Assembly (NCBI GenBank): GCA_040881665.1
Contig: JBBECT010000006.1
Location: 1 to 64,000, forward strand
DNA from: Actinomycetota bacterium
Lineage (GTDB): Bacteria > Actinomycetota > UBA4738 > HRBIN12
DNA length: 64,000 nt
Direction of reading: 5' to 3'
Each line of letters opens with the position of its first letter. Positions within the stretch are counted from its first letter, which is position 1. Shown here piece after piece: positions 18,770 to 40,440 of this stretch. A model generated the notes under the pieces. The model was not told where the DNA came from. It searched no databases and was given only the letters and a program-made list of their open reading frames with translations. A program made the translations under genes and the position numbers.

Positions 18770-18847
18770 GAACGACCTTTCCCGGAGCAAGGGTGGGAGC
18801 AACCACGGCCGCGAGCACTCGTGCCGAGGCACGACGCACCGGCCGAC

Positions 18848-18971
18848 GTCTCCTCCCATCCCGACTTTCACGGTCGGTCCCGGAGTTCCACCGGGTCAGC
18901 CCTCGTGCGTGTCGCGCCGAGGGGTCGCGGACTCTCACCGCCGGTGGGGAATCGCACCCCGCCCCGAAGAC
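18848..18971 (-). promoter_or_regulatory. FMN riboswitch (RFN element)
   Basis: The minus strand reads as a canonical RFN element: CTTCGGGGCGGGGTGCGATT, CCCACCGGCGGTGAGAGTCC, GCTGACCCGGTGGAACTCC, then GACCGTGAAAGTCGGGATGG and GAGGAGACG. It folds FMN-binding RNA upstream of ribD. About 75 bases separate it from the ribD start; they contain GTGCCTCGGCAC and the AAAGG Shine-Dalgarno. There is no U-run, so control by masking the Shine-Dalgarno is more likely than transcription termination. Confidence 0.95.
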
Positions 18972-18988
18972 GTAGCTATCTGCCAGGC

Positions 18989-24738: not shown

Positions 24739-26538
24739 TCACAGGTGCGGCTCGGCTTCGACCCGCTCGAGCACCCCGCTCGCCGCGAGCTCGCGGGCAC
24801 GCGCACCGAAGCGTGCGATCGCGTCCGGCTCGAGCGCGAGCAAGCATATCGCCTGTTCCCCCTGCCTCGAAGCGAGGAACGTGATCGGTGCGAGGGCTTC
24901 CAATGCGGCCGGCAGCTCGTCGGACCCGACGACGCGGAAGACCGCGGCCCCGACCGGGAACCCCCCCTCGGCGCGCCGGGCTCGCTCCGCGCGATGGAAC
25001 CGTTCCGGCGTTCCCTGTACGAGCGATTGCACCGCGGGATCGTTCGGTCGCGACGACTGCACGATCACTCGTCCGCCCTGCGGCGCAGCCCACGCGGCCA
25101 CCTCGGTCCATGTGGTGAGCGCGCGTTCGAGTGCGGAGATGCCCGGCCTGCGCGAGGCCAGGTCGGCGTCGAGGATGCCGACGAGGTCGAGCCCGAGCGG
25201 ACCCACGTCCTTCACCGACTCGGGGCCGCCGACCACGACCTGGTCGCCGCCGGCGAGGGACGCGAGGGCCGAGGGGTCCGCCGAGGCCGATCGGACCGGA
25301 ACGCGCGCCGCACGCCCTGCCCATTCCTCGACGTGCTCCGCGCCGCCACGCCGCAGTCCGAAGCTCTTCGCCCCGCACGATGCACACTCGCCGTCGCGTC
25401 CACACACGACGCAGCGCACCCGTCCTTGCTCCGCGCGCAGCACGCCTCCGCATGTCGCGCAGGCGGCGGGCTCGTGGCAGGCGCGACAGACCTGGGCGAT
25501 CCCGTACCCGGGCAACGGCGCGTACAGGAACGCGCGCCGCGACGAGCGCAGCGACGCGGTCAACCGCGGGGCCCGGGCCTCCGGTCCGGGGCGCACCACC
25601 TCGACCGGTGGCCACCGGCGCTGCGAGGGCTCCACCCGGACGGCCTCGAGCACCGCGGTTTCGACCGACGGGGCGAGCGCCGACACGAGGCACGCGGCAC
25701 CCTCGAGTTCGGCGCGCGCGAGGGCGACGTCTCGGACGTGGTAGTAAGGGGAGCGATCCTCACGATGCGCAGGATGGGACTCGCGCGCGACGGCGACGAG
25801 TCCCAACCTCGGCAAGGGCGCGAAGATCGCCGGGCGCGTACCGACCACCACGTCGTAGCGACCCGCGGCGATCTCGAGCCATCGCCGGTACCGCATCCGC
25901 TTGGACCCCCCGGCGAACAGTGCGGCACGCTCGCCGAACGCTTCGAGCACCGCCGTCGCCGTGAAGGGAACCGGATCGGCCTCGGGCACGAGCACGATCG
26001 CCCGTCGGCCACCCGCGAGTGTTCGGCCCACGGCGTCGACCACGATCGTGGCCTCGTCCGCGGGCGTGGGGCGCACGACGAACGCCCCACGGTGCTCGTC
26101 GAGCCCGGTCCGAACCCTCGCTCCTTCCCGGTAGGCGTCCCAGGGTCCCGCCGGGGGGGTCGGTGGCAGGTCCGTCCCGCGATCGGTCGCCACGAGGCCG
26201 GTCCACTCCTGTTCCTCGGACACGACGCGCGGCGGGGTCAACCGGCCGAGCACCGACGCGAGCGGAGCGACGTACCGCTGCGAGATCCATCGCGCGAGTT
26301 CGAGCAGATGCTCGTCGAACATGCGAACCGGAGAAACGCGCGCGCGAACCGGAAGCACGCGCTTGCCGAGCTCCCCCGCCGGGCCGAGGACCCAGCCTCG
26401 GACCTTCCGTCCGTGGAACGCGACCTCGACGAGGCTCCCGAGGCCCGCCTCGAGATCGGCGTTCAGCTCGTAGGTGAAGGGACGGTCGAGGGCGAGCAGG
26501 GGTCGGTCGACGCAGACCGCGACGGGTCCCGAAAGGAT
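24739..26538 (-). CDS. priA: PriA-like primosomal protein N' without helicase motifs
   Basis: Replication-restart protein homologue of roughly 600 residues. The N-terminal DNA-binding domain is clear (VDRPLLALDRPFTYEL; GSLVEVAFHGRKVRGWVLG). Motifs that bind ATP in other PriA proteins are absent: the Walker A position reads RPTPADE, the DEEH box reads ARESHP, SATPS reads SALAPS. VVVGTRPAIFAPL and a Cys-rich zinc-binding region (CRACHEPAACATCGG; CVVCGRDGECASCG) remain. This matches the helicase-lacking PriA known from Actinobacteria. The first ATG/GTG/TTG in frame is GTG at 26358, which would delete the conserved N-terminus. The boundary at 26538 is only a candidate position, because no conventional start lies upstream. 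metK ends at 26558. Confidence 0.82.
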   Translation of the reverse strand: MLSGPVAVCVDRPLLALDRPFTYELNADLEAGLGSLVEVAFHGRKVRGWVLGPAGELGKRVLPVRARVSPVRMFDEHLLELARWISQRYVAPLASVLGRLTPPRVVSEEQEWTGLVATDRGTDLPPTPPAGPWDAYREGARVRTGLDEHRGAFVVRPTPADEATIVVDAVGRTLAGGRRAIVLVPEADPVPFTATAVLEAFGERAALFAGGSKRMRYRRWLEIAAGRYDVVVGTRPAIFAPLPRLGLVAVARESHPAHREDRSPYYHVRDVALARAELEGAACLVSALAPSVETAVLEAVRVEPSQRRWPPVEVVRPGPEARAPRLTASLRSSRRAFLYAPLPGYGIAQVCRACHEPAACATCGGVLRAEQGRVRCVVCGRDGECASCGAKSFGLRRGGAEHVEEWAGRAARVPVRSASADPSALASLAGGDQVVVGGPESVKDVGPLGLDLVGILDADLASRRPGISALERALTTWTEVAAWAAPQGGRVIVQSSRPNDPAVQSLVQGTPERFHRAERARRAEGGFPVGAAVFRVVGSDELPAALEALAPITFLASRQGEQAICLLALEPDAIARFGARARELAASGVLERVEAEPHL

Positions 26539-30396: not shown

Positions 30397-31080
30397 TCAG
30401 CGCACCGACGCCACGATCGCGCGCGCGGCGCCGGCCGGATCGCTCGCGCCGGTGATCGGTCGTCCGACGACGAGGTAGTCCGCGCCCGCTTCGACGGCCT
30501 CCTCCGGCGTCAGGATCCGTACCTGGTCGTCGCCGTTGGATCCCGACGGCCGGATCCCGGGGACGACGAGCACGAACGCCTCCCCGACCACCTCGCGGAC
30601 CGCCGCGACGTCCGGACCCGACACGACACATGCCGCCGCACCCGCCGCTTTCGCTTCGAAGGCAAGAGATGCGGGCGAGGCAAGGTCCTCACCGGACATG
30701 CTCGACAGCACGGTCACGGCCGTAACGAGCGGTGGGGAAACGCGCGCGTCTCGCGCTCCCTGTTCTGCGCCGCGTACCGCCGCGGCGATCATCCGCTCAC
30801 CGCCGAGCGCGTGCACGGTGAGCATCAACACCCCGAGCTTCGCGGCGTTGCGCGCAGCGGCTTCGACGGTGTTCGGGATGTCGTGCAGCTTCAGGTCCAG
30901 GAACACGGGCGCGTGTTGCCCGACGCGACGGACCGCCTCCGGACCGTGCGCCGAGAACAACTCGAGCCCGACCTTCACCGCGCCGACGTTCGGCGCGAGG
31001 TCGCGGGCGAGGTTCTCCGCAGCCTCGATGTCCGACACGTCCAGCGCAGGGATCAGGGGGTTGTCTGGACGCGGGATCAC
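30397..31080 (-). CDS. pyrF: Orotidine 5'-phosphate decarboxylase
   Basis: Last step of UMP synthesis. The 227-residue TIM barrel has PLIPALDVSDIEAAENLARD, the catalytic Lys-Asp network in VFLDLKLHDIPNTV, VHALGGERMI, and the phosphate gate VVPGIRPSGS and LVVGRPITGA. GTG at 31080 overlaps the upstream pyrD-like stop as GTGA. It is the last gene of the pyr operon. This is the short bacterial OMP decarboxylase form of group I. Confidence 0.95.
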   Translation of the reverse strand: MIPRPDNPLIPALDVSDIEAAENLARDLAPNVGAVKVGLELFSAHGPEAVRRVGQHAPVFLDLKLHDIPNTVEAAARNAAKLGVLMLTVHALGGERMIAAAVRGAEQGARDARVSPPLVTAVTVLSSMSGEDLASPASLAFEAKAAGAAACVVSGPDVAAVREVVGEAFVLVVPGIRPSGSNGDDQVRILTPEEAVEAGADYLVVGRPITGASDPAGAARAIVASVR

Positions 31081-32054
31081 GCGGATCCCCCGCTCTCGAA
31101 CCGCGAGGGGGCGTCGGGACGCACAGCCGGCGCACGCATGCGTCCCCGGATGTCGCTGGGCGAGACGAGACCTTTGCCGCGCAGGTAGTCGGCGAGCCCG
31201 GAGGCCACCCGGCCGGCCGCGGCGGGATCGGTCAGCATCGCCGTTCCCACCTGGACCGCCCAGGCGCCCGCCAGCAGCAGTTCGGCGGCATCGCGACCGG
31301 TCCAGACGCCGCCGACGCCCATGATCGGGAGCTCGGGAAGCGCGCTCGCGACCTCGTGCACCGCCCGAAGCGCCAGCGGGCGCACGGCGGGACCCGAGAG
31401 GAACCCCTCGACCGCACCGAGCGAGCTCGCGAGTTCGTCCGCATCGACGGCCATGCCGGGAACGCCGTCGATCAGGGTGACCCCGTGGACCCCTGCGCGG
31501 GCACACGCTCCGGCGACGTCCACGAGACCGACCGGCATCGCCGGCAGTTTCGCGAACACGGGCACACCGGCACGCCGGGCGACGGCGCCCGTGACCTCCG
31601 CACACCGTTCCGGCCGGGCCGTGAACGCCTGGCCGTCGAGCTCCTCGTCCGGTCCGGCGAGGTAGACCTCGACCGCCACGACGCCGGGAGCCCCGTCGAG
31701 CATCGCCGTGACACGGACGTACTCCTCGACGGAGCCGCCCGCCACCGACACGATCACGGGGAGCCCGAGGCTGGCCATGTGCAGGAGATCGTCGGCCACG
31801 AACGCATCCGCGCCGGGGTTCTGGAGTCCGACCATCGACAGCAGCCCCGACGGTGTCTCCGCCGCCCGCGGCGAGGGCGCTCCTTTCCGGGGGCTCGCCG
31901 TCACCGTGCGGGACACGACACCGCCGAGTCCCCGCGCCTCGAACAGATCGCCGAGCTCGCGCCCCGACCCGAAGCATCCGGACGCCACCAACACGGCGCC
32001 CGGAAGCACCAGCCCGTTGAGATCCACGGCGAGATCGACGTCCTTCACGGCCAT
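31077..32054 (-). CDS. Dihydroorotate dehydrogenase-like protein (class 1B fold, active-site residues missing)
   Basis: By overall sequence a class 1B PyrD homologue of 325 residues in the correct operon slot next to PyrK: VASGCFGSGREL, GLQNPGADAF, FLSGPAVRPLALRAV, MGVGGVWTGRDAAE and VQVGTAMLTDP align along the family. The FMN phosphate site is kept. The catalytic NISCPN motif reads YLAGPD, removing the base Cys and both Asn. GMLNAIG reads GLLSMVG, KLSPN reads KLPAM, and INT reads IDG. Every residue expected to contact orotate is therefore changed. It may use another substrate or be inactive, with real dihydroorotate oxidation elsewhere. It starts at ATG 32054 after GGAGG and overlaps pyrF by GTGA. 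Confidence 0.85.
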   Translation of the reverse strand: MAVKDVDLAVDLNGLVLPGAVLVASGCFGSGRELGDLFEARGLGGVVSRTVTASPRKGAPSPRAAETPSGLLSMVGLQNPGADAFVADDLLHMASLGLPVIVSVAGGSVEEYVRVTAMLDGAPGVVAVEVYLAGPDEELDGQAFTARPERCAEVTGAVARRAGVPVFAKLPAMPVGLVDVAGACARAGVHGVTLIDGVPGMAVDADELASSLGAVEGFLSGPAVRPLALRAVHEVASALPELPIMGVGGVWTGRDAAELLLAGAWAVQVGTAMLTDPAAAGRVASGLADYLRGKGLVSPSDIRGRMRAPAVRPDAPSRFESGGSA

Positions 32055-32079
32055 CGCCGCGACCTCCGGTCCCGAGGGA

Positions 32080-32958
32080 TCAGTCCGGCCACGATCGCAC
32101 CACCGGGGATCCCTCGGGAGGCGTCGGGACCATCTCCTCCGCCGAACGCTCGCCCATCCATTGATCCCACAGCACACGCGCGGGGTTGAACACCGGCCCG
32201 TCGACGCACGCGCGCAATGGGTCGTAGCCGGATCCGTCCTTACGCGCCACGGGGACGGTGCACGTGTAGCACAGCCCGTAGCCGCAGCCCATCCGCTCCT
32301 CGACCGCGATCTGCGCCGGCAACCCCCGGGCGTTGCTGAAATCCGCGACGCCCCGGAGCATCTGCTGCGGTCCAGCGGCGTAGAGCACCTGGGCCCGCGT
32401 CTGCTCGGCCATGCCGGAAAGCGCGTCGAGCACCGAACCGCGTTCGCCCATGCTGCCGTCGGCGGTCATGAAGGCGACCGTCTGGGAGAGGCGCTTGCCC
32501 TCGATCGGCTTGAAGACGTGTTCGAGGTCGCGCGCGCCGACGAGCAGATCGACTCGCTTGCCCTGCGCGCGCAGCTCCTGGGCGAGGAAATAGAGCGATC
32601 CGGCACCGTGCCCCTCGGCCACCAGCAGACAGTTCGTGAGCCGGCGCGGGAACGCGAACGGCGTTCCGATCGGGCCGAGCACGTCGAGGAACGAGTGCGC
32701 GCGTTGGTGCGCGAGCCAGTCGGTGCCGTGTCCGTGCTGCTCGAAGGTGAACTCGAGGGTGCCCGCCCAGCCACCACGCCGGGACGACTGATGGATCGAG
32801 AAGTGCCGCCGGAGCAGGAACGCCCGTCCCTCGGGCATCGCGACCGAGAGGAACTGTCCCGGCCGCGCGGTCTCGGCGATCTCCGGAGCGACGATCGTCA
32901 CCGAGTGGTAGGCGCCGTAGCTCCGGTTCGACAGGATCTCTGCCCGCGCGCGCTTCAC
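32080..32958 (-). CDS. pyrK: PyrK-like iron-sulfur flavoprotein (electron-transfer subunit)
   Basis: FAD/[2Fe-2S] reductase that passes electrons from class 1B dihydroorotate dehydrogenase to NAD. The 292-residue protein has an N-terminal flavin-binding barrel ([22 protein letters not shown]), a nucleotide-binding middle ([30 protein letters not shown]), and a C-terminal iron-sulfur loop with four Cys ([17 protein letters not shown] ... [10 protein letters not shown]). GTG at 32958 overlaps the carB stop as GTGA. Its presence implies the neighbouring PyrD-like protein still works with an NAD-linked electron partner. Confidence 0.9.
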
Positions 32959-35900
32959 GGCGTCGTTTCGGGCGGCGCGGTGACCGCGGACGTGGACGAG
33001 GGGCCCGTCGTGGTTCGGCCGATCCCGAGCCGCCCCTGGATCGGCACCGCGGCGGCCTCGGCGTGGTACTCCTGGATCGAGCGCGGCTGGGTCGCGGGGG
33101 CGGCGACCGCCTCGATCCCGCGGACCGCGGCCAGCACGCCCGGGATCGTCGTGACGCACGGCACGCCGGCGATCGCGGCGGCGGTGCGGATCCAGTAGCC
33201 GTCGGTGCGCGCGCCGCGGCCGAACGGCGTGTTGATCACGAGGTCGACCTGCCCGCCTTTCAGCAGATCGACGATCGTCGGCGTCACCTCACCGGTCGCG
33301 CCCGGGCGCGCGTGCTCACCCTCGGCCGCTGTGCCCTCCGAGACCTTCTGGACGAGCTCGACGGGGATCCCTCCGCGTGTGAGCACGCCGGCCGTTCCCT
33401 TCGTCGCGAGCAGGTGGAACCCCATATCGGCGAGGCGCTTGGCCGGTAGCAGGATCGCGCGCTTGTCCCGATTGGCGACCGAGACGAACACCGTGCCCTT
33501 CACCGGGAGCGAGGTGCCTCCGGCGACCAACGCCTTCGCCAGCGCCGCGCCGGAGTCCTGATCGACGCCCATGACCTCGCCGGTGGATTTCATCTCCGGG
33601 CCGAGCACCGTGTCCGCGCCGGGGAACCGGTTGAACGGCAGCACCGCCGCCTTGACCGACGTGTAGCGCAGATGCCGGTAGTGGTGTGGATCGTCGGGCA
33701 AGACACCATCGTCGATCAGCTGCGCGATCGATCGGCCGGCGAGCAGCAGCGTGGCGGAGCGCGCGAGCGAGACCCCGATCACCTTCGATACGAAGGGAAC
33801 GGTGCGCGATGCCCGCGGGTTCGCCTCGAGCACCCAGATCGTCTCGTCCTTCACGGCGAGCTGCAGGTTGAGCAAGCCGATCACTCCGAGCCGGCGCGCG
33901 AGCGCCCTGGTGATCTCCTCGACCCGGTCCATCTCGCCGTCGGAGAGCGTCTGGGGTGGGATCGCGCAGCTCGAATCACCGGAGTGGACCCCCGCTTCCT
34001 CGATGTGCTCCATGACCGCGCCGATGAACACGTCGGTCCCGTCGCACACCGCATCCACGTCGACCTCGATCGCGCCCTCCAGGAACCGGTCGATCAGCAC
34101 CGGGTGGTCCGGAGACGCCTCCGCCGCCGTGCGCACGAAGTGCTCGAGATCCTCGGCGTCGTACACGATCTCCATCGCGCGCCCTCCGAGCACGTAGGAG
34201 GGACGGACGACGACCGGGTAGCCGATGTCCTGCGCGATCCGCCGCGCCTCCCCGAGATCGCGCGCCTCACCATGCGGCGGCGCAGGGATGTCGAGCTCGC
34301 GCAGCACCTCCGCGAACTTCCCGCGGTCCTCCGCCAGATCGATCGCGGACGGTGGGGTTCCGAGGATCCGAACACCGCGCTCGGCGAGGAAGTGCGCGAG
34401 CCGCAGCGGCGTCTGGCCGCCGAACTGGCAGATCACACCCTCGGGGCGTTCGGACTCCACGATCGCCAGGACGTCCTCTTCCGAGAGCGGCTCGAAATAG
34501 AGGCGGCTCGAGGTGTCGTAGTCGGTCGAGACCGTCTCGGGGTTGGAGTTGACCATCACCGATTCGAAGCCGGCCTCCTCGAGTGCGAAGGCGGCGTGCA
34601 CGCAGGCGTAATCGAACTCGATCCCCTGCCCGATCCGGTTCGGCCCGGCGCCGAGGATCACGACCCGGGGTCGCTGCGCCGGCGTCACCTCGTCGGAGTC
34701 CTCGTAGGTCGAGTAGTGGTACGGCGTGCGGGCCGCGAACTCCCCGCCGCAGGTGTCGACGGTCTTGAACACCGGCCGGACCGCGAGCTCGCGGCGCCGC
34801 TCGGTCGCGGCACGCGCACCCGTTCCGGTCATGTGGGCGATCCGCCGGTCCGAGAGGCCGACCCGTTTGGCGCGCCGGATCTGTTCCGCGGAGAGTTCGG
34901 CGAGCGACCGTCCACGTAACGCCTCGGCCTCCTCGACCACCTCGGCGATCTGATCGACGAACCACGGGTCGATCGCCGAGGCTTCCGCGACCTCCTCGAT
35001 ACCGTGGCCGTCGCGCAGCGCGCGCTCGACCAGCAACAGCCGGTGCTCGGTCCCCTCGGCGATCGCGCTGAGCACATCACCCCCGTCGTCCCCCGGACCG
35101 TCGGCACCGAGGTCGAAACCGGTCCTCTCGATCGCGCGCCAGGACTTGCCGAGCGCCTCTTTGAAGGTTCGCCCGATCGCCATGACCTCACCGACCGACT
35201 TCATCGTGCTGGTGAGGGTCGGATCGGCCTCCGGGAACTTCTCGAAGGCGAACCGCGGCACCTTCACGACGACGTAGTCGAGCGTCGGCTCGAAGGCGGC
35301 CGGAGTCTCGCCGGTGATGTCGTTGACGATCTCGTCGAGGCGGTAGCCGACGGCGAGCAGGGCGGCGATCTTCGCGATCGGGAACCCGGTCGCCTTCGAC
35401 GCGAGCGCGGACGAGCGCGACACGCGAGGGTTCATCTCGATCACGACCCGCCGGCCCGTCCGTGGGTCGACGGCGAACTGGACGTTCGATCCACCGGTCT
35501 CGACACCGATCGCGCGGATGCAGGTGATGGCGTCGTCGCGCATCTGTTGGTACTCGCGGTCGGTGAGCGTCTGCTGCGGGGCGACGGTGATCGAGTCCCC
35601 CGTGTGCACACCCATCGGGTCGACGTTCTCGATCGAACAGATGATGACGGCGTTGTCGGCGCCGTCGCGCATCACCTCGAGCTCGAACTCTTTCCAGCCC
35701 TTGACCGATTCCTCGATCAGGACCTCGGTCGCCGGCGATTCCGCGAGGCTCCGACGGACCAGCTCCACGAGCTCGGCGCGGTCGTCCGCGAAGCCGCTGC
35801 CGCCGCCGCCCAGCATGAAGGAGGGCCGCACGATCACGGGGTAGCCGATCCGATCGGCGATCGCGGCGGCGTCAGCGACCGTGGTCGCGGTCTCCGCCCG

Positions 35901-36332
35901 TGGTACCTCCAACCCCGCCGCGACCATCCTCTCCTTGAATCGGCTGCGGTCCTCGGCGGCGTGGATCGCATCGAGCTTCGCCCCGATCAGCTCGACACCG
36001 AGTCGGTCGAGCTCCCCGGTTCCGGCGAGCGCGACCGCCACGTTGAGCCCCGTCTGCCCGCCGAGCGTCGGCAGCAACACGTCGGGCCGTTCGCGCCGCA
36101 CGATCGCCAGCACCGACTCCGGCGTCAGCGGCTCGATGTAGGTCGCGTCGGCGAACGACGGGTCGGTCATGATCGTCGCGGGGTTCGAGTTCACGAGGCA
36201 GACCTCGTACCCTTCAGCGCGCAGCGCCCGGCACGCCTGCGTTCCCGAGTAGTCGAACTCGCATGCCTGCCCGATCACGATCGGACCCGACCCGATCACC
36301 ATCACTTTGCGGATGTCGTTTCGTTTAGGCAC
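32955..36332 (-). CDS. carB: Carbamoyl-phosphate synthase large subunit
   Basis: Makes carbamoyl phosphate from ammonia, bicarbonate and ATP for pyrimidine and arginine synthesis. The 1125-residue protein has two homologous ATP-grasp halves: [20 protein letters not shown] begins the first and [20 protein letters not shown] the second. Both show an NSNPxT motif ([20 protein letters not shown]). The C-terminal MGS-like allosteric domain follows ([14 protein letters not shown]). GTG at 36332 directly abuts the carA stop. The product feeds pyrB here and argF at 7621. Confidence 0.97.
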
Positions 36333-37511
36333 CTAGGATGCCTCCCGCATCGACGCGCGGAACTCGTCGAACAGGTAGCGGGAATCGTGCGGCCCGGGCG
36401 CGGCCTCGGGGTGGTACTGCACCGAGAACGCGGGCACGTCGAGGCAGCGGAGCCCCTCGAGCGTTCCGTCGTTCAGGTTCCAGTGGGTGAGCGCAACACG
36501 TCCCGACGCCGTCTCGACCACGGCCGGCTCGCCGGCGGCCGCCGCCTCGGCGGGATCGAGCCCGTCGTCCCACGACCGCGCGTCCACCGCGAACCCGTGG
36601 TTGTGGCTGGTGATCTCGACTCGGCCCGACCGGAGGTCCTTCACCGGCTGGTTCACCCCACGGTGACCGAACTTCATCTTGTAGGTGCTCCCACCGAGCG
36701 CGTGTCCCAACAGTTGGTGCCCCAGACAGATCCCGAACACCGGCACCGTCCCGAGCAACGCCCGCGTCGTCGCGATCCCGTAGCGCGTCGCCCCCGGATC
36801 GCCGGGTCCGTTCGACAGGAACAGCCCCTCGAACCCTCCGGCGGCGATCTCCTCGGGCGGCGTCTGTGCGGGGAACACCGACGCCTCGATGCCCTCCGCC
36901 GCAAGCAGCCGCAGGATGTTCCGCTTCATACCGAGGTCGAGGGCCGCGACCGCGTGGGTGCGCCCCTCATGCGCCTTCGCGGGGCCGACGAGCTCGCGAG
37001 CCTCGTAGGGCCGCGGAGCGCTCACGTTTTTGGCCAGGTCGGCACCCTCCATCCCCGACTGCTCCCGCACGCGGTCGGTCAGCGAGCCGGGGTCGAGATC
37101 GGTGGTGGACACCCCGCACCGCATCGCGCCCGCCTCGCGGATCCGCAGCGTGAGCCGACGGGTGTCGACATCTTCGATCCCCACGACGCCGGCCGCGCCC
37201 AGTTCCTCGTGCAGCGTGCGCCGGGCCCGCCAGCTCGATGCCCGGCGCGAGGCCTCACGGACCACGAATCCCGCAACCTGGACGTCCGATGATTCGGCGT
37301 CCTCGTCGTTCGTCCCGTAGTTGCCCTGCTGCGGCGCGGTCATCACGACGACCTGGCCGGCGTACGAGGGATCGGTGAGCACCTCCTGGTAGCCGACCAT
37401 GCCGGTGTTGAACACGACCTCACCGAAGCTCTCCCCTGCCGCGCCGAACCCGCGCCCGTGGAATGCCGTGCCGTCCTCGAGCACCAGGAGCGCCTCCGGA
37501 CCCCGGGTCAC
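36333..37511 (-). CDS. carA: Carbamoyl-phosphate synthase small subunit
   Basis: Glutaminase subunit supplying ammonia to CarB. The 392-residue protein has the N-terminal CPSase domain (LVLEDGTAFHGRGFG; VVFNTGMVGYQEVLTDPSY) and a class I amidotransferase domain with nucleophile Cys in VFGICLGHQLLGHALGG and catalytic His in VQYHPEAAPGPHDS. The start is GTG at 37511, overlapping the pyrC stop as GTGA; open frame further upstream is a shadow of pyrC. Confidence 0.96.
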   Translation of the reverse strand: MTRGPEALLVLEDGTAFHGRGFGAAGESFGEVVFNTGMVGYQEVLTDPSYAGQVVVMTAPQQGNYGTNDEDAESSDVQVAGFVVREASRRASSWRARRTLHEELGAAGVVGIEDVDTRRLTLRIREAGAMRCGVSTTDLDPGSLTDRVREQSGMEGADLAKNVSAPRPYEARELVGPAKAHEGRTHAVAALDLGMKRNILRLLAAEGIEASVFPAQTPPEEIAAGGFEGLFLSNGPGDPGATRYGIATTRALLGTVPVFGICLGHQLLGHALGGSTYKMKFGHRGVNQPVKDLRSGRVEITSHNHGFAVDARSWDDGLDPAEAAAAGEPAVVETASGRVALTHWNLNDGTLEGLRCLDVPAFSVQYHPEAAPGPHDSRYLFDEFRASMREAS

Positions 37512-38810
37512 CGCTGGGCCTTCCCGTCCGCGACGACGAGCTCCCCCCGGAAGCACGTGTGGACCACCCGCCCCGTGAGCGATGCCCCGAGGAACGCGGA
37601 GTTCCGACTCTTGGAGACGAACGGCGCCTCCGCGGTCCACCGCGCGGCCGGGTCGAACACGACGAGGTTGGCCGGGTCGCCGACCTCGAGCGGGCCACCG
37701 TGGTCGGTCGCTCCCAGGATCCGAGCGGGAGCGCTCGAGAGCGCGTCGATCGCCCGCGACAGCGGGAGCAGTCCGGGCTCCACGAGGTGGGTGAGCACGG
37801 CGGCCAGCGCCGTCTCGAGACCGATCGTGCCCGGAGGGCTCCGGTCGAACTCGGCCTCCTTCTCCTCGACCGCGTGGGGGGCGTGGTCGGTGGCGATCAC
37901 GTCGATCGTGCCGTCGGCCAGGCCGGCGCGCAGCGCGTCCCGGTCGTCGGAGGTGCGCAGCGGCGGGTTCACCTTCAGGTTCGTGTCGTAGGTGACGAGG
38001 TCGTCGTCGGTGAACACGAGATGGTGCGGCGTGACCTCGGCCGAGACCCGCAGACCCTCATCCTTCGCGCGGCGGATCAGGTCGATCGAACCCGCGGAGG
38101 ACACGTGGCATACGTGGAGCCGCCCGCCGGTCATCCGTGCGATCGCGAGGTCGCGGGCGAGCGCCACCTCTTCCGCCTCGCGCGGACGCCCCGCCAGACC
38201 CAGGGAGTAGGAGTTGTATCCCTCGTGCATCTGTCCGCCCTCGACGAGGCTCGGGTCCTCACAGTGCTCGGCGATCACCACGTCGTCGAACGCGGTCGCG
38301 TACCGCAGCGCATAGCGCAGCACGCGCGCGTTCGGCACGCAGTTCCCGTCGTCGCTGAAGATCCGCACCCCCGCCTCGACCATCTCGCCGAGCTCGGCGA
38401 GGTCTTCTCCCTCGAGCCTGCGGGTGATCGCACCGACCGGGAACACGTCGCAGAGGCCCGCGCGGGCCGCGAGTGCCTGCACCTCTCGGATCACCGCGGC
38501 ATTGTCGGCAACCGGATCGGTGTTCGCCATCGCCGAGATCGCGGTGAACCCTCCGGCCGCGGCGGCACGCGACCCGCTCTCGATCGTCTCCTTGTCCTCG
38601 CGGCCGGGTTCCCGCAGATGCGTGTGCAGATCGACGAGCCCCGGTGTCAGCACGAGCCCGTCGCACTCGACGATGTCCGCATCACCGGCCTCGGCCCCGT
38701 CGCCGATCGCGGCGATCCTGCCGCCTGAGACGAGCAGGTCGGCCGGGGTGTCGCGTTCCCCGGCGGGATCGATCACGCGAGCCCCCCGGAACAGCAGCTT
38801 CGCGCTCGCC

Positions 38811-38818
<8 letters not shown>
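37508..38818 (-). CDS. pyrC: Dihydroorotase (class I, PyrC)
   Basis: Cyclises carbamoyl-aspartate to dihydroorotate. The 436-residue amidohydrolase has the metal site [10 protein letters not shown] with HxH, the DDGN loop (IFSDDGNCV), the His ligands in VIAEHCED and HVCHVSSAG, and the catalytic-loop Asp in [12 protein letters not shown]. The ATG at 38818 (MSEASAK) falls in the last eight bases of pyrB, so the two are translationally coupled. Confidence 0.96.

Positions 38819-40440
<1,622 letters not shown>

Follow-up and report, generated by a model that had tools for sequence, protein, structure and literature searches.

A PyrD-PyrK pair altered at both its orotate and NAD sites persists in the pyr operon of an actinobacterial family beside a second, class-2-like PyrD

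Class 1B dihydroorotate dehydrogenase (DHODB) works reversibly, and the catalytic base of class 2 dihydroorotate dehydrogenases (DHODs) is normally a serine. In the two-subunit class 1B enzymes, PyrDB is required for the cluster of PyrK, and either subunit is destabilized without the other (PMC8097209). Mutants of a class 1A enzyme in which the catalytic cysteine or the lysine was replaced by alanine (C->A, K->A) did not complement (PMC10395836). In the T. brucei DHODH, the counterparts of K48, N132, and N197 (Lactococcus lactis numbering is used here for active-site positions) touch the FMN ring, while the FMN phosphate and ribose are held by equivalents of Gly, Thr, and Lys residues retained in the protein described below (PMC5881531).

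The locus lies in a window of 64,000 nucleotides, the whole stretch of DNA that was analyzed, from an Actinomycetota genome (G000). The operon reads pyrR-(pyrB)-pyrC-carA-carB-pyrK-pyrD-pyrF, followed by an actinobacterial-type IHF gene and gmk, with pyrB assigned by position. The other pyrimidine genes, all on the minus strand, were located at 39782-40369 (pyrR, the regulator heading the operon), 37508-38884 (pyrC, ORF bounds with an approximate start), 36333-37640 (carA, ORF bounds), 32955-36332 (carB, upstream), 32080-32958 (pyrK), 31077-32054 (pyrD), and 30397-31080 (pyrF, above its curated cut-off). The PyrD homolog, PyrD1, has 325 residues, starts with the ATG at 32054 and stops at 31077; a GGAGG stands ahead of the start at 32063-32067 on the same strand. 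The 292-residue PyrK homolog starts with GTG in a GTGA overlap with the carB stop. The GTG start of pyrF likewise shares four nucleotides (GTGA) with the pyrD stop, confirming the coupling by overlap noted in the initial annotation. In the order sample of 27 genomes, 17 belong to the same family (f1), and the place of PyrD1-PyrK in the operon was constant across it. Elsewhere in the window, we observed an FMN riboswitch at 18844-18975 (minus strand, 104 bits) and a PriA-like protein at 24739-26358 (minus strand) scoring 182 bits vs a curated cut-off of 980 bits. The helicase part of this protein may be degenerate, as is known for actinobacterial PriA.

PyrD1 aligned end-to-end with L. lactis PyrDB (1ep1; phmmer, E 2e-54), with no gap across the active site. 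At residues 131-136 (positions 31647-31664, minus strand), the motif NISCPN is replaced by YLAGPD, which makes N132 a tyrosine (Y131 of PyrD1), C135 a glycine (G134), and N137 an aspartate (D136). Further substitutions are K48 to R49, N72 to S73, N197 to D196, and T198 to G197, with K170 retained as K169. The loss of the catalytic Cys and the substrate Asn residues, which the initial annotation had claimed for this gene, was therefore borne out by the gapless alignment. Misalignment was rejected as the source of the missing residues: the alignment to 1EP1 is unambiguous across the motifs, so that no realignment brings back Cys or Asn, and the check that could have restored them restored neither.

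The FMN phosphate-binding loops LSGPA, GVGGV, and VGTA are present, as had been noted before, and the ribose residues are retained too. The predicted structure of PyrD1 (AlphaFold, pLDDT 79) is a barrel whose best PDB matches in Foldseek were those of L. lactis DHODB, with TM scores of 0.80-0.87. With the NCBIfam model PRK07259, PyrD1 scored 267 bits vs a curated cut-off of 269 bits, and a relative in f4 scored 369. PyrD1 is thus a class 1B protein by fold and descent, and stands outside the class by its defining catalytic features. The class 1A data on C->A and K->A mutants (PMC10395836) make a loss of dihydroorotate activity strongly expected, and by this analogy PyrD1 has presumably lost it. 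Since the FMN ring contacts K48, N132, and N197 are among the losses, the binding of FMN may itself be altered or lost.

The claim that the PyrK partner is kept held for the gene and its four cluster cysteines, but not for the NAD motif and the CGP cysteine, which were lost in parallel. The region of the [2Fe-2S] cysteines (32206-32286, minus strand) retains four of four, while the NAD motif GGGxGxxP has given way to AEGHGAGS at 32596-32619 on the same strand. Throughout the f1 PyrKs (15/15), this motif is changed to [A/S/C]E-x-[H/R]..., with a Glu fixed where GGG has its second Gly, and CGP has Ala instead of its Cys; RPFS has mostly become RHFS, and the four cluster cysteines are unchanged in all 15. 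PyrK matches PF10418 above the cut-off; its predicted model is weak (pLDDT 64.5, and near 30 in the Fe-S domain), and the fold match is therefore trusted only to the family level. As read from the sequences, the PyrD1-PyrK electron chain is changed at both reactant ends and conserved in between. That the residues for the flavin phosphate and the cluster are retained points to cofactors that are still bound and important for redox chemistry or folding, and the mutual stabilization of PyrDB and PyrK (PMC8097209) would account for the retention of both subunits. The pair probably behaves as a cofactor-bearing pseudo-DHODB. A literature search, with subscription journals mostly outside its coverage, returned no report of such a PyrD-PyrK complex.

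The pocket set was lost in all 13 f1 PyrD homologs with a readable pocket, and the catalytic Cys was absent from each, the base position being Gly, Ala, or Thr. Arginine at position 48 is fixed, and D137 occurs in 12 of 13 (G once). The other pocket positions are variable (S/W/T at 72, Y/H/Q at 132, D/G/A/S at 197), and positions 72, 132, 134-136, 197, and 198 differ between f1 genera. The entropy of the substrate positions averaged 1.04 bits in f1 vs 0 in f3/f4, where all eight PyrDs are canonical. In the PyrD tree, f1 and f2 formed one clade (98/99) nested within the class 1B PyrD of the order, so PyrD1 descends vertically from a canonical class 1B PyrD; the loss is clade-wide in f1 (13/13), with the exact loop variable between genera. 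The f2 protein (G017) is intermediate, with K48Q, N72W, N137D, N197G, and T198P and the Cys retained. If f2 mirrors the path, the catalytic Cys would have been the last residue to go. The pocket ligands are canonical in every sampled class 1B copy outside f1, f2, and an unrelated genus of family f29 (g133, considered below). Every readable f1 homolog is affected, compared to 0 of 96 inspected genomes with class 1B only, and thus the losses are not a matter of chance. Contamination was rejected as the source of the trait, which is clade-wide with fixed synteny. In G020, an additional PyrD whose loop is canonical (L050) lies on a small contig and a long branch and is probably foreign. A single scan of genome contigs with P0002 matched canonical PyrDs of Bacillota only; the actinobacterial type of the IHF is in keeping with Actinomycetota.

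Within f1 genera, dN/dS varied from 0.09 to 0.15 for pyrD1 and from 0.09 to 0.17 for pyrK, comparable to the active relatives in f3/f4. In f1, pyrD1 is under purifying selection. The earlier view that this is not a decayed gene stands, as the gene is intact and clade-wide; its intact copies span ten genera. The mean identity in f1 was 59% for pyrD1 vs 69.5% for pyrK, 68% for pyrF, and 73% for the 3' end of carB, while in f3/f4 all four fell within 70-73%. In f1 pyrD1 alone evolves faster than its neighbors, which is consistent with a relaxed active-site constraint. Two copies deviate: in G008 (L040:5619-6516) pyrD1 has a frameshift in a GC-rich run of a four-contig assembly, which may be a sequencing error, and in G007 (L042:3287-4111) an in-frame gap of ~30 residues removes one barrel strand.

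Besides PyrD1, the genome of the window has one other PF01180 gene, coding for a class-2-like protein (PyrD2, P0003). This second pyrD (L001:1462-2466, minus strand) adjoins pyrE in divergent orientation. PyrD2 has an N-terminal extension and its best matches are among class 2 enzymes, with 172 bits vs a curated class 2 cut-off of 200. The orotate ligands (K67, N112, N166, N171, K202, N234) are all retained in 13/13 copies, those of G000 and 12 relatives. The base in f1 (L001, L015-L032) is Cys (NASCPN) in nine of the 13 and Ser (NASSPN) in the other four; it appears from the sequences to have switched within one family. The f1 copies scored 476-581 bits, compared to no more than 217 elsewhere in the phylum sample; full copies were found in 13 genomes and contig-end fragments in two. 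The host has two nuoH-type genes, which makes quinone coupling of PyrD2 plausible. The suggestion that another enzyme oxidizes dihydroorotate has thus become probable, and PyrD2 probably does so in place of PyrD1-PyrK. A class 2 PyrD is absent from f3/f4. None was found in G005 (93% complete) or in G017, and a good pyrE, which adjoins the class 2 gene in f1, was also missing from both assemblies. A third DHOD-like protein as the replacement was rejected for G000, with its two PF01180 genes. Weak matches of 40-50 bits occurred in relatives, two of them PRK07565-type DHOD-like proteins; G000 has none.

Among the 296 genomes of the phylum sample, class 1B was found in 243 and class 2 in 49, with class 2 present without class 1B in 33. 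Genomes with both classes were confined to f1 (11) and g133 (three); a fourth g133 genome with both is G296. All 96 inspected class-1B-only genomes retain the class 1B Cys. In g133, PyrD has Ser or Ala for C135, and PyrK has G[QAS]G for GGG and SGP for CGP, with the cluster cysteines retained; the same two PyrK positions are altered in f1 and g133. A sister genus without class 2 (G062) is canonical. The g133 losses are independent of those in f1, and the data amount to two events, not 15 independent points. Low to moderate dN/dS values were obtained in g133 (pyrD1, 0.03-0.26). The operon is broken in this genus (L188-L191, L195-L197), with unrelated genes inserted between pyrD and pyrF; the insertion in G251 consists of a response regulator and a histidine kinase. 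The two parallel losses form a natural experiment, suggesting that a class 1B and a class 2 enzyme do not both remain active in one genome of this phylum.

We consider it rather probable that PyrD1-PyrK is a retired DHODB: a class 2 enzyme took over, both ends were disconnected, and the cofactor-bearing complex persists. In the f1 ancestor, a class-2-like, probably quinone-linked PyrD beside pyrE would have taken over dihydroorotate oxidation. NADH could then reduce orotate via DHODB while the class 2 enzyme re-oxidized the product to quinone, a futile loop; such a possible short circuit between a reversible DHODB and a quinone-linked PyrD would be a reason to disconnect DHODB. The PyrD end would have been cut by loss of the catalytic base and the orotate ligands and the PyrK end by loss of the NAD motif and the CGP Cys, while selection would have preserved the core that binds the FMN phosphate and [2Fe-2S] (and probably FAD). 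No longer acting on dihydroorotate, the complex would most likely persist either by relaying electrons from one new partner to another or by giving the pathway structural support; the bound cofactors and this present role are what we infer. A general route, in which an incoming quinone-linked PyrD leads to a DHODB cut from dihydroorotate and NAD and a flavin/[2Fe-2S] core turned redox complex, twice independently in one phylum, is put forward tentatively.

The initial annotation had left a choice between a non-catalytic partner and a subfamily with a new substrate; the former fits better, as the genera differ freely from one another at most positions of the pocket. A purely structural pseudoenzyme, holding or stabilizing pathway enzymes, is one branch of the retirement proposed above and, by itself, somewhat doubtful. 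The constant operon place in f1, the mutual stabilization of PyrDB, PyrK, and the cluster (PMC8097209), and the same-pathway precedent of an inactive dihydroorotase serving aspartate transcarbamoylase (PMC4581275) speak for it, but four cluster cysteines in 15/15 and the flavin phosphate motifs exceed the needs of a scaffold, unless the cofactors aid folding. A new flavin oxidoreductase, with another small substrate in a remodeled PyrD1 pocket and another acceptor at PyrK, seems unlikely. The variation of the pocket between genera (1.04 bits vs 0) is not that of a conserved substrate site, and PyrD1 outpaces its neighbors; in favor of new chemistry are the fixed R48, the D137 in 12/13, the retained K170 and FMN phosphate residues, and the Glu fixed in PyrK, though R48 and D137 may merely pair with each other.

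Slow decay of a dead gene, retained only through the overlapping starts between carB and pyrF, is harder still to credit: the faster rate of pyrD1, one frameshift, and one ~30-residue in-frame gap would fit it, but dN/dS is as low as in the active f3/f4 genes, pyrK is as conserved as pyrF, and pyrD1 is intact in ten genera, with the frameshift possibly a sequencing error. We regard as very improbable a DHOD that still works by an unusual mechanism or with a non-NAD acceptor in the manner of class 1S. That class uses Ser and no NAD (PMC10395836; PMC5881531), the Ser-bearing g133 copies are similar, and f2 retains the Cys; the f1 base is, however, Gly, Ala, or Thr, the Asn ligands and Lys48 are gone, and there is another PyrD whose site is complete.

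If PyrD1-PyrK is a retired DHODB, the f1 genomes would be annotated with a functional NAD-linked DHOD although this enzyme is probably inactive, and electrons would be misplaced in metabolic models. The two parallel losses also suggest a further role of PyrD-PyrK that can be separated from the oxidation of dihydroorotate.

Among known systems, the class 1B DHOD of L. lactis (1EP1-1EP3) shares with the f1 pair the fold, the two-subunit gene pair, the operon place, the FMN phosphate residues, and the [2Fe-2S] cysteines. Unlike class 1B, PyrD1 is without the catalytic Cys, Lys48, and the orotate Asn ligands, and PyrK is without GGGxGxxP and CGP. The class 1S enzyme of Sulfolobus solfataricus, compared by description, is likewise a PyrD-type complex with FMN and Fe-S and no use of NAD; it oxidizes dihydroorotate with a Ser base, whereas PyrD1 of f1 is missing the ligands and has no Ser or Cys as base, and by the same description the Ser-bearing g133 copies are nearer to class 1S than f1 PyrD1 is. 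PyrD2 shares the N-terminal extension of class 2 DHODs but scores below their cut-off and mostly has Cys where class 2 has Ser. Inactive dihydroorotases (of Pseudomonas aspartate transcarbamoylase and of fungal CAD-like proteins) are also dead relatives retained in the pyrimidine pathway; they scaffold one neighbor enzyme, while PyrD1-PyrK is a two-subunit redox complex with both reactant sites lost.
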